From IMG/VR virus record IMGVR_UViG_3300017782_000260, positions 1 through 21,962 of that record: DNA of 21,962 nucleotides. One strand, written 5' to 3'. Positions 12,918-21,962 of this stretch are shown one piece after another (position 1 is the first letter of the stretch; each line of letters starts with the position of its first letter). The position numbers and the translations under genes are program-made. The notes under the pieces were generated by a model. That model was not told the origin of the DNA, did not search any database, and was given only the letters and a program-made list of their open reading frames with translations. This stretch comes from a virus.

Positions 12918-14665
12918 AGAGGTTCTTCCCCTTCAATAGGGGTCATAGCCTCTGCTTCTATACTCTCTTGCCCAGCGTTCATAAGACGCTGTGTATCCAT
13001 CTGCTCCATCAACCCTCTATTGTCACCATATAAATCGTAACGTTTGACATTAAGCAAATCTTCAAACAGCTTAGCAAGCTGCTTACCAGATATGTGTTGT
13101 TTAACATCGGGCCATACAGGGGTGTTGGCTAAGTTAATTAGGTTTTGCACCGTCTGTGCTTGCTGAGCAAAATGTCTAGCCCCAACAGGGCGTAGCTTAC
13201 CTTTAGCTGTAATGTCTTCTTTTGTAATAGACAAGAAGTCTGCAACACCTAAGTCGTCGTCCATAACGCGAATAACATCACCACCTGACATATTCCTAAC
13301 TGCCAACTCTAGCATGTTATTTAGCAAAGGCTCTAGCACATCTATCTCAAACTGTGTAACTTTCTCTTGAAAGATACGACCAGCAGCATTCTCTAAAGCA
13401 CCAACTTCAAACGCTGTTTTCTCGCCCGGAGTGCGAATACCCATAGCCTGTTTAGGTGCTCCAGCAGCCTCCTCCATCATATTCATCAGGAAGGCCATCT
13501 CAGCTTCTGCTGCTTGTAAGTTAACACCTGTGAATAGGGGAGCTACGTCTCCGTCTTCGTCCATCTGGAAGCGTGCAAATGGCCCCCACTGGCTGTCTTC
13601 TTGCAACTCTCCTCGCACCTTGAGTGGAGGCATAATAGTGAGGTCACGAGCATCTGCGGCAATGTTTTGCAAGTGGTCGAGTCGGTATTGCATCCCGACC
13701 AGATTATCAAGTGGACCCATGCCATAAAGATTATCAGGGCGCTTACGCCACGAAGTAAAAACTCTGTGTCCATTACGTTTCCATGCAGGGATTGGTGCTT
13801 TACGTAAAACTTTAGTTCTGTCTATAACAGTGACAATGTAGTCGTCTAGCATCTCCCCTGTATCAGGGTCATTAATAGTTCCAGTGAACTCTAGAATTTC
13901 CACAAACCCACTTTTTAGGTAAGTGTAGTAATCACCAAAACCATCTACACTATAACCTTCAGCTTTCTTAACATCATCCCTACTCCAATTAGTAAGATGT
14001 GATCTAGCGTTCTTAGCCTCGGCTAACGCCTTCTTGGCTGTCTCATCTCCAGTATCTTTATACTCTAACTCTAGGGTGCCGAAGTGTTTTATTGTACGGC
14101 TAATCTTCCAGCTATGTTCATAGGTTAATGCTGTGGGGTCAAACACTTCATCTAAAGGTGATCTTCTTATAGCTCGTGGTCCCACATATCCGGGGATAGA
14201 CTCTCCGCTATCGGGGTCTTGTTTTGTCTCATTAACCCAAACACAATCAGCAATAACAACACCATAATCAATGTAATCATAAAGAAGAGAGGAGATAACA
14301 CTACGCATATTATCTTCTCTAACTTTGTTAGACATATACGCTTGTATAGCTGACTTCTTTTCTTGAGTCTCGTCATCAATGCCATAACCTTCCCACTTAA
14401 GCCAATCATCATTAGGAAACAATGCAGAAATATAATTAGCATGTAGATTGTCACGTATTTGACAAATCTTTGGAATGGTCGTAGAATTACGCCACGGCAA
14501 GCTAGAATTACTAGTCTTGCTAGTATCTGTAGCAAAGACATAATTGCGAAGCTCTTGCTTCTCTGCTTCCCATGTATGTCTATTGCTTTTCTTTTCATCC
14601 CACTGCTCTACAATGAAAGATGCCAACCCTTCCATAGGGAAGTTGTCTAATTCTAATGTACTCAT
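12914..14665 (-). CDS. Portal (head-tail connector) protein
   Basis: This 583-residue protein follows the large terminase with a 4-base ATGA overlap, the standard portal position. Portal-like features include the N-terminal SSLPWRNSTTIPKICQIRDN, the mid-region RRSPLDEVFDPTA and WRKRPDNLYGMGPLDNLVGM, and the long C-terminal helices with MNMMEEAAGAPKQAMGIRTP and EKTAFEVGALENAAGRIFQE. The last stretch matches the conserved portal stem and crown region (GEKTA.E). Length fits the podovirus head-to-tail connector range. The portal forms the dodecameric ring through which DNA enters the head. The C-terminal tail is acidic and Met/Glu rich. Confidence is high from both motifs and context. Confidence 0.9.
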   Translation of the reverse strand: MSTLELDNFPMEGLASFIVEQWDEKKSNRHTWEAEKQELRNYVFATDTSKTSNSSLPWRNSTTIPKICQIRDNLHANYISALFPNDDWLKWEGYGIDDETQEKKSAIQAYMSNKVREDNMRSVISSLLYDYIDYGVVIADCVWVNETKQDPDSGESIPGYVGPRAIRRSPLDEVFDPTALTYEHSWKISRTIKHFGTLELEYKDTGDETAKKALAEAKNARSHLTNWSRDDVKKAEGYSVDGFGDYYTYLKSGFVEILEFTGTINDPDTGEMLDDYIVTVIDRTKVLRKAPIPAWKRNGHRVFTSWRKRPDNLYGMGPLDNLVGMQYRLDHLQNIAADARDLTIMPPLKVRGELQEDSQWGPFARFQMDEDGDVAPLFTGVNLQAAEAEMAFLMNMMEEAAGAPKQAMGIRTPGEKTAFEVGALENAAGRIFQEKVTQFEIDVLEPLLNNMLELAVRNMSGGDVIRVMDDDLGVADFLSITKEDITAKGKLRPVGARHFAQQAQTVQNLINLANTPVWPDVKQHISGKQLAKLFEDLLNVKRYDLYGDNRGLMEQMDTQRLMNAGQESIEAEAMTPIEGEEPL

Positions 14666-16185
14666 ACGTAAGCAATGCCACCAAAGCGTGAGTTAAAATT
14701 ATATTGCTGTTGTGTATCTCTGCCGTCTAGCTTTTGTTTTGGAGCTTTGGCAATCTCTACAGCAGATGCTAAACAATCTTTTAAGTCGTCGTGTGCTGGA
14801 CGAGCACGCAACAACTCTTCTTCTAATGCAGCAGTGTAACCACCTTTGTGGTGGTACATCTGTAGATTCTCATATCTAGGCTCTAAAACTGCAGCAATCC
14901 TTTCTTCTTTCTTCCCTTCGTGTCTATTAGGTCTGTGTTCATCAATCTTAATCATAGATCCGTTAGCTTTAAACCTATCTTTTAAATCTCTAACAATAAT
15001 CTGCTGAGCTACAGTTACTTCTGCTCGTAGTGTTTTAAATTCCCACTTCTGGTGCATACGCTCTATACGATTGTAATACTCTGCAATCTTATCGGTCTTA
15101 AACCGATCCATATCTAATACGTATACATCGTTAGATGTAGAGAGGCCAATAACAACTATAGCTGAATAGTCTGCATTCTTATTTAAAGAAAATGCAAAGT
15201 CTATTGCTGCATAGAGGTTTAACCTCTCATCTCCGTAATACCACTTTCCGTATGTTTGCTGTAGCTTACTTCTATCGAAGTATTGAAACCTGCTATTGTT
15301 CATTCTAGCAGATTCTGGGTCGTTGGGGTCGTTATAATACTGTGCGTAAAACTGTGTGCGGTCTGTATACTTAGCGCTAATCTTAGCTAGCTCTTGGCGA
15401 TTAAAGCCAAACAGCTTACCGTCTTTCCTTGCAGATCTAGGCCATAAAAACTTACCATCAACCTCTACAGCTTTTTCAAATATATCCCACAGATCTTCTT
15501 CACCAACAATATTATCCTTGTCATCAAACTGCGTAACAGTTTGCTCTTTCCATATACTGTATTGATCTGCTGGGTGGTAGCGTGTACCACAAGCTTTCTG
15601 TATACCGCCAGCATTAAGAATAGAGGCCATCTGAGACATTGCTGCAGACGTCTTACGTCTCCCTTCTTCTGTGTATGCGTTGTCTGGAACAACAACGTCA
15701 TCTGCCACTAAAACCTCACAATGCAGGCCAGTGGTGTTTGTTGTCAAACCAGCAGCAAAAACTGTAAAGTCCCTAATACCCTCTGCTTTACGTTTGGGGT
15801 GATCTACAGAGATGGCACCAGTTGTCCACTTCTCCCTCTTACCCTCTTCTTCATGAACCATCTCAGGCCAATAACGTTTATATATCTCACTGGTAAGAGT
15901 GTTCTTAATTGCGTATAGCTGCGCTTCTGCAAGCGTAGATGTAGCTGATAAATATAAGATGGAGGTGTCTGGATGCTTTGTTATCCACCAACAAGCCCAC
16001 ACTTCCATACAATGACTCTTCATGTGTGCTCGTGGTAGTAAGAGTAGTTGCTCTTGTTCGTTACACTCTAACCACTTAAAGACTTGCTTGTGTACATCTC
16101 CATAAACCCTTTCAGGGTGTACAAGCTTAGCGAATGCAAATAAACTACTTTCTGCTAACTCTCTAATCTCGTCTAGTTCATTCAT
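14662..16185 (-). CDS. terL: Terminase large subunit (packaging ATPase and nuclease)
   Basis: This 507-residue protein carries the expected two domains. The ATPase has a Walker-A-like PRAHMKS (51-57, with Lys56), a coupling motif SATST (80-84) and a Walker B EVLVADD (157-163). The nuclease has an RNase-H-like set: an Asp in AAIDFAF (329), an acidic residue in LRAEV (389) and Asp in DDLKDCLASAVE (466-470). It cuts genome concatemers and drives DNA into the prohead through the portal. Its ATG overlaps the stop of the small-subunit candidate, and its stop overlaps the portal ATG, both as ATGA. The length is typical for the family. This is the most certain functional call in the late region. Confidence 0.95.
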   Translation of the reverse strand: MNELDEIRELAESSLFAFAKLVHPERVYGDVHKQVFKWLECNEQEQLLLLPRAHMKSHCMEVWACWWITKHPDTSILYLSATSTLAEAQLYAIKNTLTSEIYKRYWPEMVHEEEGKREKWTTGAISVDHPKRKAEGIRDFTVFAAGLTTNTTGLHCEVLVADDVVVPDNAYTEEGRRKTSAAMSQMASILNAGGIQKACGTRYHPADQYSIWKEQTVTQFDDKDNIVGEEDLWDIFEKAVEVDGKFLWPRSARKDGKLFGFNRQELAKISAKYTDRTQFYAQYYNDPNDPESARMNNSRFQYFDRSKLQQTYGKWYYGDERLNLYAAIDFAFSLNKNADYSAIVVIGLSTSNDVYVLDMDRFKTDKIAEYYNRIERMHQKWEFKTLRAEVTVAQQIIVRDLKDRFKANGSMIKIDEHRPNRHEGKKEERIAAVLEPRYENLQMYHHKGGYTAALEEELLRARPAHDDLKDCLASAVEIAKAPKQKLDGRDTQQQYNFNSRFGGIAYV

Positions 16186-16718
16186 TCTTGAAGACGTCTT
16201 AAATCATCTTTAACCAAACTAACAACTTCTGCTTTCTTAGGCTTTCTGCCAGCCCTCTTGGGCTTGCCAACAGCATTCTTATCTAAATACCCTTTGTTAG
16301 CTAAATAGCTTAGCGTAGCCTGTGACGCCTCCCCTGCGTACATTTGGTCCAACATAACTTTAACAGCTTTAGCTTTTAAACGTTGTTGTAATTCATCTTT
16401 CATAGATTCGTATGCAGGTTTAAAGAATGCACACTCTTTTAGCTTTAGCCAATGTTGGTAGCAAGCAAAGTATTTGTTTGCAAATTCATATTCACTTACA
16501 TCTTCACACTCAACGTAAAGTTTGTGGATAGATGGATAGTGTTTACCATTCTTCTCTCTATCCCAAGGTTGCAAAGTGTACAAGGCATTCCTATCAGTTG
16601 CAGACTGATCTAAGAACAAACCATCAGTTAACCACTTAGTACCATTACCTTTAAATTTATCTCTTTGCAAAATATATCTCTGCATATAAGTGCATGGATG
16701 CACGTTAATGTCAACCAT
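16182..16718 (-). CDS. Putative terminase small subunit
   Basis: This is the first gene of the leftward operon: 178 residues, overlapping terL by 4 bases. The start of the protein (VDINVHPCTYMQRYILQRDK, then KWLTDGLFLDQS) is like proteins I recall preceding terL in marine podovirus-like phages. The middle is helical. The C-terminus is strongly basic (KPKRAGRKPKKAE), suited to DNA binding. Small terminase subunits recognise the packaging site. The call rests mainly on position and the basic tail. The ATG at 16716-16718 is the first possible common start after the in-frame stop at 16797-16799. It has no visible Shine-Dalgarno and is preceded by a hairpin only one base-pair step away. Confidence 0.65.
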   Translation of the reverse strand: MVDINVHPCTYMQRYILQRDKFKGNGTKWLTDGLFLDQSATDRNALYTLQPWDREKNGKHYPSIHKLYVECEDVSEYEFANKYFACYQHWLKLKECAFFKPAYESMKDELQQRLKAKAVKVMLDQMYAGEASQATLSYLANKGYLDKNAVGKPKRAGRKPKKAEVVSLVKDDLRRLQE

Positions 16719-16737
16719 CCAATGCTGGGAGCATTGG
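16719..16737 (-). repeat. Perfect hairpin abutting the small terminase start codon
   Basis: CCAATGCT-GGG-AGCATTGG has eight perfect pairs and a three-base loop. In the minus-strand RNA it ends immediately before the ATG at 16718-16716. It occupies the place where a Shine-Dalgarno would sit, and no purine-rich ribosome site is seen within about 25 bases upstream. It may hide or shape translation initiation, or bind a regulator. There is no U-tract, so it is not a terminator. Confidence 0.7.
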
Positions 16738-16751
16738 TGGGTGGGAATGTT

Positions 16752-16811
16752 ATGTCTTCGACAATGTTTAACTTCTTCCCTTAAGGGGAAGCAATATTAT
16801 GTCGAAGACAT
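16752..16811. repeat. Nested inverted repeat A
   Basis: Outer arms ATGTCTTCGACA (16752-16763) and TGTCGAAGACAT (16800-16811) are a perfect 12-base match. Between them lies an inner hairpin CTTCCC-TTAAG-GGGAAG (16775-16791). The element sits in the presumed late leader. It could fold as a long branched RNA hairpin, or serve as a two-half-site DNA operator. Confidence 0.7.
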
Positions 16812-16818
16812 TAGGGTT

Positions 16819-16855
16819 GGGAATATTCTATAGTCTTTTTAAAGACACAATTCCC
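16819..16855. repeat. Nested inverted repeat B
   Basis: Outer arms GGGAAT (16819-16824) and ATTCCC (16850-16855) flank an inner dyad GTCTTT-TT-AAAGAC (16833-16846). It lies 8 bases from repeat A and 16 from repeat C, and shares the same hairpin-inside-arms design. It is individually short, so the nested arrangement is the main reason to note it. Confidence 0.5.
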
Positions 16856-16870
16856 CCCTTCTGCAACACC

Positions 16871-16930
16871 GTTATAATCTAATCTCTCTAAGGAGAGATA
16901 AATAAATTAATCTCTTAATTAGATTATAAC
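16871..16930. repeat. Nested inverted repeat C with possible three-way junction
   Basis: Arms GTTATAATCTAAT (16871-16883) and ATTAGATTATAAC (16918-16930) match perfectly over 13 bases. Inside are two more hairpins: ATCTCTC-TAAG-GAGAGAT (16882-16899) and AATTAA-TCTC-TTAATT (16905-16920). Because these borrow a few bases from the arms, the best joint fold is a 10-pair outer stem carrying two tetraloop hairpins, a Y shape. Each arm contains a perfect TATAAT on opposite strands, so the element also spans promoter -10 sites. An ATATTTTTTT run follows on the plus strand. Confidence 0.7.
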
Positions 16931-16951
16931 ATATTTTTTTCCAAAAGTGTA
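16923..16951 (-). promoter_or_regulatory. Predicted late promoter, extended -10
   Basis: The minus strand reads TGTTATAAT, an extended -10 (TGN followed by a perfect TATAAT at 16928-16923). The -35 at the usual 17-base spacing, TACACT (16951-16946), is poor. Transcription would begin near 16916 and give a leader of about 200 bases before the terminase genes. A weak -35 with a dyad further upstream would fit an activated promoter. No start site is proven. Confidence 0.5.
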
Positions 16952-16965
16952 GTATTTTGAAGATT

Positions 16966-16985
16966 AAATTGTAACAAAATGTTAC
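16966..16985 (-). promoter_or_regulatory. GTAACA-N3-TGTTAC operator-like dyad upstream of the late promoter
   Basis: The minus strand reads GTAACATTTTGTTACAATTT. It contains the 15-base dyad GTAACA-N3-TGTTAC (16971-16985) and the motif TTACAATT (16974-16967). Its centre is about 62 bases upstream of the predicted late start. Nearly the same 20-base sequence recurs at 19441-19460. Confidence 0.5.
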
Positions 16986-17046
16986 TGCACTAAACTACGA
17001 TAATTTTATGAGAAATTTTTAAGTTGCAATGCATAATAAAAACTAA

Positions 17047-17070
17047 CCCCCATACCCCCCCTAGTACCCC
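17047..17070. repeat. C-tract cluster, possible G-quadruplex on the minus strand
   Basis: Three cytosine runs of 5, 7 and 4 bases are separated by ATA and TAGTA. On the minus strand this gives GGGG, a 5-base loop, seven G (enough for two GGG runs), a 3-base loop, then GGGGG. That satisfies the simple four-run G-quadruplex pattern. It stands out in an AT-rich region. Confidence 0.5.
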
Positions 17071-17227
17071 TGTTAGCATAGCTACGCATAACAATCAAAT
17101 AGTTTTTATTAATAACAATCCCCGCAACAATAGCTTTTAATTATTGGCACGATTCTTGTATGAAATTTTGTTGTATTAACACCCATCCATTCCCCGCACT
17201 TATTGCTGGCATACATATTGCTTTATA

Positions 17228-17265
17228 TTCAAATACTTAAAGTATAATTATTATTTATATTTGAA
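17228..17265. repeat. AT-rich dyad with inner palindrome
   Basis: Arms TTCAAATA (17228-17235) and TATTTGAA (17258-17265) enclose most of ATACTT-A-AAGTAT (17233-17245), which overlaps the left arm slightly. A TATAAT lies at 17243-17248, but no good -35 stands at the right distance. It could be an easily melted segment or a regulator site. Confidence 0.4.
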
Positions 17266-17322
17266 GGTGTAAGTATTGATTAGATGAATGTGTATTCAAT
17301 ATATTATTGGCATGGCTATTGC

Positions 17323-17344
17323 TACGCGCATGCGCGTGCACGCG
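17323..17344. repeat. Alternating purine-pyrimidine GC island with 14-base palindrome
   Basis: Twenty-two bases alternate strictly between pyrimidine and purine, mostly CG and CA/TG steps, a composition known to favour left-handed Z-DNA under supercoiling. It contains the perfect palindrome ACGCGCATGCGCGT (17324-17337). It lies about 60 bases upstream of the early promoter -35 and contrasts sharply with its AT-rich surroundings. Confidence 0.6.
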
Positions 17345-17366
17345 GTGAAGATAGTAGGTGTAGTGT

Positions 17367-17384
17367 TTACAATTCGTTACAATT
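17367..17384 (+). promoter_or_regulatory. TTACAATT direct repeat upstream of the early promoter
   Basis: TTACAATT occurs at 17367-17374 and again at 17377-17384, a 10-base period or about one helical turn, so both copies face the same side of the DNA. The centre is about 60 bases upstream of the predicted early start. The same octamer sits in the dyads at 16966-16985 and 19441-19460. Confidence 0.5.
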
Positions 17385-17400
17385 ATTTATTTCACAAGTG

Positions 17401-17428
17401 TTGAACTTGGGTTTGTGTTGTGTATAAT
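17401..17428 (+). promoter_or_regulatory. Predicted early promoter, sigma-70 type
   Basis: TTGAAC (17401-17406), a 16-base spacer and a perfect TATAAT (17423-17428) give a good sigma-70-like promoter. The predicted start near 17435 leaves a leader of about 29 bases before the first ATG. This would let host RNA polymerase begin early transcription. Confidence 0.7.
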
Positions 17429-17440
17429 TACAAACATCGA

Positions 17441-17455
17441 CAACAAACAAAGAGG
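17441..17455 (+). promoter_or_regulatory. Repeated A/C-rich translation leader, copy 1
   Basis: CAACAAACAAAGAGG precedes the first early gene. The A/C-rich stretch and the ribosome site are repeated before the next two genes. AGAGGTG at 17451-17457 is the Shine-Dalgarno for the ATG at 17464. A GTG at 17455 lies inside it and is therefore not the likely start. Confidence 0.6.
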
Positions 17456-17463
17456 TGAACACT

Positions 17464-18711: not shown

Positions 18712-19092
18712 ATGACTAGGATCAATGTTGTTAGTGTCAAAGATTTGACAAACAAACACTTGTTTGCAGAGTATAGAGAGTTGCCACGTATATTTACGGC
18801 TGTAGGCAAGCTGGCACCCGGTGAAGGGTTTTTAGATGGTGGCTATAGGTTAGGTCAGGGTCATGTTAAGTTCTTTTATAACAAGCTTACGTGGCTATTA
18901 GATAGGTATAAACAATTGAAGGGGGAGTTAGATGGAAGAAACTACAATATTAATCTCGAAACATACGACAGCATTGTGAGCAATGCTGAACGATTGATCG
19001 AAGAAAGAAAGGGCTGGGATGTGGTTTATAATCCTACGCCAGATGAAAAATATACAAACATGCAAAGGTTAGTGGAGAGGTGGACAAAATGA
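18712..19092 (+). CDS. denV: Pyrimidine-dimer DNA glycosylase, T4 endonuclease V type
   Basis: The first 26 residues closely match T4 endonuclease V: MTRIN, then H16, then AEYRELPR (19-26). All known N-terminal active-site residues are present: Thr2, whose amino group attacks the sugar after Met removal, Arg3, Arg22, catalytic Glu23 and Arg26. GQGHVKFFYNKLTWLLDRY matches the T4 GAGHVTFFYDKL region. The enzyme removes one base of UV-induced cyclobutane pyrimidine dimers and nicks the strand, starting excision repair. At 126 residues it is shorter than the 138 of T4. The T4 C-terminal WYKYYG is replaced by NPTPDEKYTNMQRLVERW. It lies in the early operon and its stop overlaps the next ATG. Confidence 0.93.
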   Translation: MTRINVVSVKDLTNKHLFAEYRELPRIFTAVGKLAPGEGFLDGGYRLGQGHVKFFYNKLTWLLDRYKQLKGELDGRNYNINLETYDSIVSNAERLIEERKGWDVVYNPTPDEKYTNMQRLVERWTK

Positions 19093-19268: not shown

Positions 19269-19444
19269 ATAGATATGAAATTGGTGTGGCTTTGGGCAGT
19301 TGGTTGGCTAGCAAGAGCGAGTTGATTGATAAGTGGGATGCGAGTGGCGATGAAGTTTTACACTATGATGTCAATGAAAACGTAGTTTTAATATGCATAT
19401 TAATTGCAGATCAAAGACCTAAGTTTATATTAAAAGAAAAGTAA
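19265..19444 (+). CDS. Small early hypothetical protein, 59 residues
   Basis: The ATG at 19265 overlaps the preceding TGA (ATGA) and has AAAGGG 8 bases upstream. An in-frame GTG at 19256 is less likely. The protein has an N-terminal helix (YEIGVALGSWLASKSELIDK) and a short hydrophobic strand (VVLICILIA) too brief for a confident membrane span. Its stop codon overlaps the operator-like dyad at 19441-19460, so the end of the gene and the next control site are merged. Function unknown. Confidence 0.65.
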   Translation: MNRYEIGVALGSWLASKSELIDKWDASGDEVLHYDVNENVVLICILIADQRPKFILKEK

Positions 19445-19460
19445 CAAACTGTTACAATTA
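19441..19460 (+). promoter_or_regulatory. GTAACA-N3-TGTTAC operator-like dyad upstream of primase
   Basis: GTAACAAACTGTTACAATTA contains the dyad GTAACA-N3-TGTTAC (19441-19455) and TTACAATT (19452-19459). It matches the element upstream of the late promoter at 16 of 20 positions, in the same orientation relative to its downstream gene. It begins the 139-base gap before the primase gene. Confidence 0.5.
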
Positions 19461-19477
19461 ATTGTTTTACTATGTTT

Positions 19478-19506
19478 TTAAAATATGCTATTATTATTTA
19501 TATATT
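19478..19506 (+). promoter_or_regulatory. Possible weak internal promoter for primase
   Basis: TATATT (19501-19506) matches five of six -10 positions, but the -35 at 17 bases (TTAAAA) is poor. The predicted start near 19513 puts the upstream dyad about 65 bases away, like the other two promoters. The stretch is so AT-rich that chance matches are easy. Confidence 0.25.
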
Positions 19507-19509
19507 ATA

Positions 19510-19531
19510 GCAACCTGCTTAAACAGGTTGC
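19510..19531 (+). repeat. Inverted repeat in the primase leader, first
   Basis: GCAACCTG-CTTAAA-CAGGTTGC has eight perfect pairs. The loop contains TTAA, so as DNA it is a 22-base near-palindrome with one mismatched pair. It is followed by ATATATATAAC rather than a U-tract, so a strong terminator is unlikely. An operator or leader hairpin is more likely. Confidence 0.6.
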
Positions 19532-19540
19532 ATATATATA

Positions 19541-19563
19541 ACAAAAGCTTTTAAAGCTTTTGT
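19541..19563 (+). repeat. Perfect 23-base palindrome in the primase leader, second
   Basis: ACAAAAGCTTT-T-AAAGCTTTTGT has 11-base arms around one central base. It ends 7 bases before the primase ribosome site (AAGGA). It may be a DNA operator or an RNA hairpin that influences translation of primase. Confidence 0.65.
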
Positions 19564-19583
19564 ATATTATAAGGAATATAACT

Positions 19584-20889: not shown

Positions 20890-21219
20890 ATGAATACATA
20901 CATTGAACAACACAAGAGGACATTGGCACAGCTTGCAGAGTTTCTACTTTATGAGCTTAGAAATTGTGGGGAGTTCACATATACCACAGGCATTGGCATA
21001 GATGGGGAGGTGGCGCGCAGAAAGTACGCTGTAACGTTTTATGATTTAGTGAGCAAACCTAATACGGCTTTATTGGAAAGCTTAGAGCGCTATGTTTTTA
21101 GAACGGATGGCGCATTTATTTTAGATGCTATAAGAACAGAGATAGAGTATGAAGTGGAAGACCTATCCTTGGAAGAGCTGAGAGCAAACATTAAAGTTAA
21201 GGAATTGGAGGTAGCATGA
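20890..21219 (+). CDS. Early hypothetical protein, 109 residues
   Basis: The ATG at 20890 has AAAGGTG 7 bases upstream. The protein has an N-terminal helix (MNTYIEQHKRTLAQLAEFLL), a beta-rich centre (GEFTYTTGIGIDGEVARRKY) and an acidic helical C-terminus (EYEVEDLSLEELRANIK). There is one Cys and no signal or membrane segment. No family was recognised. Its stop overlaps the next start as ATGA, so the two are probably translated together. Confidence 0.65.
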   Translation: MNTYIEQHKRTLAQLAEFLLYELRNCGEFTYTTGIGIDGEVARRKYAVTFYDLVSKPNTALLESLERYVFRTDGAFILDAIRTEIEYEVEDLSLEELRANIKVKELEVA

Positions 21220-21962
21220 CTTTACAAGCATGGCAAAACGACCCGGCAAAAAAAGCTTTTTACATTGAACGAATAAAAGCTCATAGAGACGCAGATAATT
21301 TGATTCAAGGTAAAGGTTGGGACGGAACCAAGGGGTGTTCTATTGGATGCACGTTTGAAAATTATACCCACGCACTGCATGAAACTGAGCTTGGATTGCC
21401 TAAATGGCTGGCACATCTGCAAGACGCGATCCACGAACGGTTGAGCGCAGAGCATTCGAGAGAATGGACGCTGCAATTATATAGCGCGATCCCGGTCGGC
21501 GCAGATGTTGATTCGATTAGAAAGTGTATCGAGATAGATAGGCTTGATCGACTTATTGAGCTGCAAGGAAAAAGTGATTACCACGCTAAGCAAGATGTAA
21601 TTGATGCGTTGACGCTGTGCAAAAATTGCTGGCTTGGGAGAAGTGATGATTGGTCGGCGGCAGAGGAGGCGGCAAGGTCAGCAGCATGTTCAGCGGAGCG
21701 GCAAAGGTTAGCAGCAAGGTCATCAGCAAGGTCAGCAAGGTCAGCAGCATGGTCGGCGGAAAGGTCAGCATGGTCAGCAGCATGGTCAGCATGGACAGCA
21801 GCGTCAATAGCATGGTCAGCAGAGTGGTCAGCAAGGTCATCAGCAAGGTCAGCAAGGTCAGCAGCATGGTCAGCAGAGTGGTCAGCAAGGTCATCAGCAA
21901 GGTCAGCAAGGTCAGCAGCATGGTCGGCGGAAAGGTCAGCAACGGCATGGTTAGCAGAAAGA
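21216..21962 (+). CDS. Conserved protein with Ser-Ala-Arg/Trp repeat tail, partial
   Basis: The ATG at 21216 overlaps the preceding TGA, and the frame is open for 249 codons to the window edge. The first 140 residues (IKAHRDADNLIQGKGWDGTK, GCSIGCTF, ETELGLPKWLAHLQDAIHER, AIPVGADVD) resemble a conserved family of unknown function that I recall from phages and proteobacteria. From about residue 145 the sequence becomes a low-complexity series of SA-R, SA-W and SAE units (AWSAEWSARSSARSARSA), probably a long helix. The tail contains an exact 54-base tandem duplication, and codon use collapses to TCA, GCA, AGG and TGG. The function of the tail is unknown. Confidence 0.8.
   Translation, partial: MTLQAWQNDPAKKAFYIERIKAHRDADNLIQGKGWDGTKGCSIGCTFENYTHALHETELGLPKWLAHLQDAIHERLSAEHSREWTLQLYSAIPVGADVDSIRKCIEIDRLDRLIELQGKSDYHAKQDVIDALTLCKNCWLGRSDDWSAAEEAARSAACSAERQRLAARSSARSARSAAWSAERSAWSAAWSAWTAASIAWSAEWSARSSARSARSAAWSAEWSARSSARSARSAAWSAERSATAWLAER
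21811..21918 (+). repeat. Exact 54-base tandem duplication
   Basis: Bases 21811-21864 are repeated without change at 21865-21918, followed by a third, incomplete start. The unit encodes 18 residues (AWSAEWSARSSARSARSA), so copy-number change keeps the frame. Shorter GGTCAGCA units repeat throughout 21660-21950. Confidence 0.9.

Follow-up and report, generated by a model that had tools for sequence, protein, structure and literature searches.

A conserved hairpin array beside the predicted genome end of a Zobellviridae-like phage: a possible structured leader of the late mRNA

What is the role of a row of hairpins, several of them nested inside longer inverted repeats, that lies directly in front of the terminase genes of a phage? 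The question is raised by a stretch of viral DNA of 21,962 bases (the window), in which leftward late genes and rightward early genes are separated by a noncoding strip (Table 1). The large terminase subunit (TerL) is 64% identical to that of Vibrio phage VP41s3 and 63% identical to that of ICP2, over 99%, and by this related terminase and a related terminus the window is assigned to a Zobellviridae-like phage. Zobellviridae have no RNA polymerase of their own (PMC9960094). Since the open reading frame upstream of the TerL gene has no match in Pfam or PDB, its designation as small terminase gene (terS) is based on position, and its start may be Met12 at 16685. The early region also holds a pyrimidine-dimer glycosylase (denV-like) gene (18712-19092). 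At 21216-21962, an open frame with many tandem repeats of the SARSAAWSAE type continues past the window end.

Table 1. Positions of the features in the window and what characterizes them.
Feature	Position	Strand	Description
Terminase large subunit	14662..16185	-	
Presumed small terminase (terS)	16182..16718	-	Directly upstream of terL; PHROG 8035, unknown function
Small hairpin	16690..16703	-	GTGCA-TCCA-TGCAC (late sense), from the sequence; within the open reading frame of the first-pass annotation
8-bp hairpin	16719..16737	-	CCAATGCT/GGG/AGCATTGG, late-sense loop CCC; abuts the first possible terS start codon
Element A, nested hairpin	16752..16811	-	Outer arms 12/12; inner CTTCCC-(CTTAA)-GGGAAG
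Element B	16819..16855	-	6-base arms 16819-16824 / 16850-16855; inner hairpin 16833-16846
Element C	16871..16930	-	Outer arms 13/13; two inner hairpins, one ATCTCTC-(CTTA)-GAGAGAT
Late promoter-like extended -10	16923..16932	-	ATGTTATAAT; conserved as GTATGNTATAAT in relatives
15-bp dyad plus AATT	16967..16985	-	GTAACA-TTT-TGTTACAATT; second exact copy of the pattern at 19441-19459
Terminus element, family-wide	17001..17072	.	C runs, GTTGC(A/T)ATGCA, AT-rich flank; profile search
Second promoter-plus-hairpin module	19441..19583	+	Dyad, extended -10 (19485), two hairpins, primase start

The first-pass annotation had described four hairpin elements in a row, with outer arms of 12, 6 and 13 bases in the last three, and had judged the arrangement unlikely to be due to chance. 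Inspection of the sequence located all four at the positions and with the arms given there, and the folding energies agree with that judgment: the 217-base region folds at -72.4 kcal/mol on the plus strand (z -6.3) and at -73.1 kcal/mol on the minus strand (z -7.6), and on neither strand did any of 200 shuffles fold as well. Most of this signal comes from element A (alone, z -7.7 minus and -6.7 plus), followed by element C (z -3.7 and -4.6), while element B, already regarded as weak, is not significant when folded alone (z -1.4 and -1.2). A scan of the entire window for nested hairpins, with a minimum of 9 bases for the outer arms and of 5 for the inner stem, returned A and C only, and when inner stems of at least 4 were admitted the two nested elements of the leader were equalled in 0 of 60 shuffles. 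The array probably continues to the small hairpin near the terS start, whose TCCA-type loop recurs near terS in L022, L024 and L021; small hairpins with TCC(A/C/T) loops are found near terS in most of the relatives. With the covariance models of Rfam 15, the window gave no match at the gathering score and positions 16600-17460 gave none at E ≤ 5; in the relatives only tRNAs were matched. tRNA genes lie around terS in L021 (612-702, 1795-1950) and L023 (1430-1674), one of them directly before terS. No intrinsic terminator (G+C stem followed by a T run) is present in 16600-17460, and, judged by eye on the available sequences, no small open reading frame that crosses element A on the other strand is conserved.

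The window was compared with five other metagenome phages (L021, L022, L023, L024 and L050), which form a clade with it and in which, as in the window, the late genes begin with the presumed terS. Their presumed terS proteins are 46-57% identical to that of the window, and their leaders are packed with hairpins on both strands (z -6 to -10; -5.5 to -10 for the six species including the window). Nested elements occur in 6 of 6 terS-first leaders, with one A-like counterpart in the leader of each relative, and these counterparts have outer stems of 10-14 bp that are unrelated in sequence and still paired, around an inner pyrimidine/purine stem. In the outer stems of element A, 105 of 165 compared pairs were changed on both sides and 0 on one side, a zero that arises by construction, as the stems had been preselected as perfect. 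The hairpin located downstream of the promoter-like motif (hairpin 1) pairs in 100% of cells (four phages); 6 of its 9 pairs have changed at both positions, none at one position only, and none is broken; this was reached in 0 of 500 shuffles, and slid controls gave at most 1. By these alignments, the structure is conserved by compensatory change; pairing is kept while sequence is lost, which is the opposite of what the first-pass annotation had named as refuting its reading. Since the hairpin shapes persist despite changed letters, it is probably the fold that counts.

Most of the relatives also share loops and a promoter-like motif. The loops in their leaders read CTTAA, CTTA or CTTAAA in the late sense, and outside this setting the genomes have few such CTTA(A) loops. 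The hairpins that carry them lie downstream of the promoter-like motif: they follow a conserved TATGNTATAAT motif in L021, L023, L024 and L050 and a TGTATAAT motif in L022, and in most relatives the form GTATGNTATAAT is preceded by TTGTAAC-like repeats. While motif and CTTAA hairpins stay together, the pair of elements B and A shifts position. It follows the motif in the window; A lies downstream of the array in L021, L023 and L024, with a G run ahead of the motif in L023 and L024, and in L050 and L022 both B and A are upstream of the motif. The GGGGGG...TTCCC pattern of element B recurs in relatives. In the nearly identical phages L133 and L024, one leader has a 20-base piece (AACAATATACGTCAGTATAT) that the other lacks, gained or lost recently. 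A search with the flanks of hairpin 1 for further members of the clade returned known members and unrelated chance matches only, and no relatives were found in bacterial genomes.

The promoter-like motif is part of a larger arrangement that occurs a second time in the window. The exact dyad GTAACA-N3-TGTTAC is present twice, each time 26-35 bp upstream of a ATGNTATNAT motif, and its late copy is likely a regulator site, judging from the sequence. In the second module, dyad and extended -10 are followed directly before the primase gene by the hairpins GCAACCTG-(CTTAAA)-CAGGTTGC and ACAAAAGCTT-(TTA)-AAGCTTTTGT. A covariance model of promoter and hairpins matched, beyond its training set, positions 19485-19567 in the direction of early transcription (E 0.09). 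The module, which includes a AAAAGCTT hairpin, is 76% similar over 84 bases to the late leader of L024. Hairpins upstream of primase in L050 were considered as the same module and rejected, as they lie in or near coding sequence. The late -10 is not among the sites listed by a consensus promoter scan, and these promoter-like sites were no more numerous than in shuffles. The late -10 box sits within one outer arm of element C, and the other arm carries its mirror. Because of this overlap, full pairing of C in the late RNA is improbable, and C is probably a dyad of the DNA that covers the promoter-like -10 box, not a hairpin of the RNA. The late RNA could contain the inner hairpins of C, and element A could operate in either RNA or DNA.

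On the other side of the promoter-like motif, about 70-100 bases beyond the hairpins, a profile search detected the terminus element, which about 40 relatives have at the equivalent location. Matches to the profile cross the boundary at which the right direct terminal repeat is annotated to begin in Lentibacter phage ICBM2 (E 3e-9; cut ...TTTAGTCGC|ATTGTACA) and in Pseudoalteromonas phage RIO-1 (E 4e-5; cut ...GGTGCTA|TGCACCCC), and the counterpart in the window is ...TTAAGTTGC|AATGCATA. As homologues cross the repeat boundaries of both phages, a direct terminal repeat is predicted to start near 17027/17028. The hairpins would thus fill the space from the genome end to the first late gene and, provided that the homology holds, would lie about 100-310 bases in from the virion genome's right end. 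The direct terminal repeats of cobaviruses have a conserved G+C-rich 5' end (PMC6775973). A cohesive-end (cos) reading, taken from a note in the VP41s3 record, was dropped because the homologous spot in ICBM2 and RIO-1 is an annotated direct repeat. On the predicted terminal-repeat side (17028-17454), a 12-bp inverted repeat (17034-17045 / 17100-17111) flanks three C runs, and an early promoter-like TTGAAC-16-TATAAT lies at 17401-17428. Several records of Vibrio phage PS32B (MW865301, MW865297, MW824409) stop 61 bases beyond the portion of the terminus element that was matched, which might be as expected for a nearby physical end.

Taken together, we tentatively favor the reading that the strip mainly serves the late mRNA as a structured 5' leader, which overlaps the genome end (a probability of roughly 0.45). 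Leftward transcription would start at about 16915 from a phage-type promoter made up of the dyad GTAACA-N3-TGTTACAATT and the extended -10 TATGTTATAAT, and the late transcript would open with a chain of stem-loops that would shield its 5' end from decay and/or offer the CUUAA-type loop to a protein. Transcription start, protective or binding role and exact genome end are all inferred here from sequence. Direct support comes from the pairing, the compensatory change, the recurring loop, the promoter-like motif, the second copy before primase and the terminus homologue, and the case is built on six related phages, a terminus assigned by homology and a terS named by position. The presence of a 5' UTR hairpin 2.5 kb away, before primase, argues for a role in RNA or linked to transcription; as motif and CTTAA hairpins stay together and recur as that second module, a transcription-linked role is favored for the CTTAA hairpins, while element A is ambiguous. 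Stem-loops in 5' UTRs stabilize phage and bacterial mRNAs, and the array resembles them in its place, immediately downstream of a promoter and ahead of the first gene; it differs in its many tandem hairpins, the shared CUUAA-type loop and the absence of an Rfam match. Against the leader stand the equally structured antisense strand and stems without G-U excess (276 Watson-Crick, 5 G-U and 7 A-C pairs), unlike a structure conserved in RNA only, the outcome of the consensus promoter scan, and an E of only 0.09 for the second module. The G-U and A-C counts were not taken as proof of RNA or DNA, since the terminator control was uninformative, and sequence and both-strand structure do not separate the two roles. 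Of the options offered by the first-pass annotation, placement in a late leader gained from the extended -10 found before the CUUAA-loop hairpins of the relatives, and the link to a packaging site from the neighboring homology to the direct-terminal-repeat boundary of cultured relatives.

A role in DNA is a serious rival because in L050 and L022 the promoter-like motif is preceded by element A, which would accordingly be absent from that transcript. The palindromes may instead act as DNA at the concatemer junction, where they would help the terminase to find and process the right end or to duplicate the terminal repeat, on the model of the hairpin-ended intermediate proposed for T7; we consider this less likely than the leader, although the strand symmetry of the stems, their distance from the predicted terminal-repeat start and the retention of the form of A at any position relative to the motif all fit it. 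Chung, Nardone and Hinkle reportedly described inverted repeats at the T7 right end in 1990 and proposed such a concatemer intermediate. Modest inverted repeats lie in T7 about 90-150 bp left of the right terminal repeat, and as in the window they are just inside the repeat and near packaging genes. However, the T7 strip is weakly structured and folds no better than shuffles (z -0.66), and here a long array has nested elements and a conserved loop and contains a promoter-like motif. The T7 hairpin intermediate is cited in PMC4925675 and PMC4281155. The distance from terminus to A also varies widely, and one promoter-plus-hairpin copy is far from the genome end. Moreover, relatives in which a tail gene comes first keep the terminus element and mostly lack strong adjacent hairpins (mean z -1.6/-1.8, all relatives), although the same end processing would be expected. 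Cobaviruses and RIO-1, with direct terminal repeats (PMC6775973), are likewise homologous to the window across the annotated repeat boundary, but tail or other genes rather than terS adjoin their terminus and no strong hairpin array was found there.

An unlikely reading that joins both sides is that a sequence-independent element at the genome end, consisting of one nested hairpin per genome plus the CUUAA-loop array, would couple the processing of the terminus with the late expression of packaging genes, a phage protein reading loop and shape. That the strip consists mainly of DNA operators, with C over the -10 box and the upstream dyad bound by a phage regulator and the other hairpins secondary, is improbable: the repeated spacing of dyad and motif and the overlap of C with the -10 and its mirror would fit, but stem sequences vary in the relatives while pairing stays, unlike a sequence-specific operator, and element A and the CUUAA loops are left unexplained. 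Least probable of all is that the palindromes have no role and turn over rapidly, being generated by template switching close to a genome end during replication. Arms that are perfect yet unrelated between species and leader pieces that come and go, as between L133 and L024, would be expected from such turnover; leaders that each have one nested element, with similar inner hairpins and with linkers and loop conserved in several species, would not.

A targeted, narrow literature search returned no papers on such hairpin arrays, and the papers found give no account of late gene control in Zobellviridae. How phages regenerate their terminal repeats is still disputed. Within about 350 bases, this strip brings the predicted end of the genome together with a promoter-like motif and hairpins conserved in shape, and both repeat regeneration and late control may therefore be testable with one small DNA.
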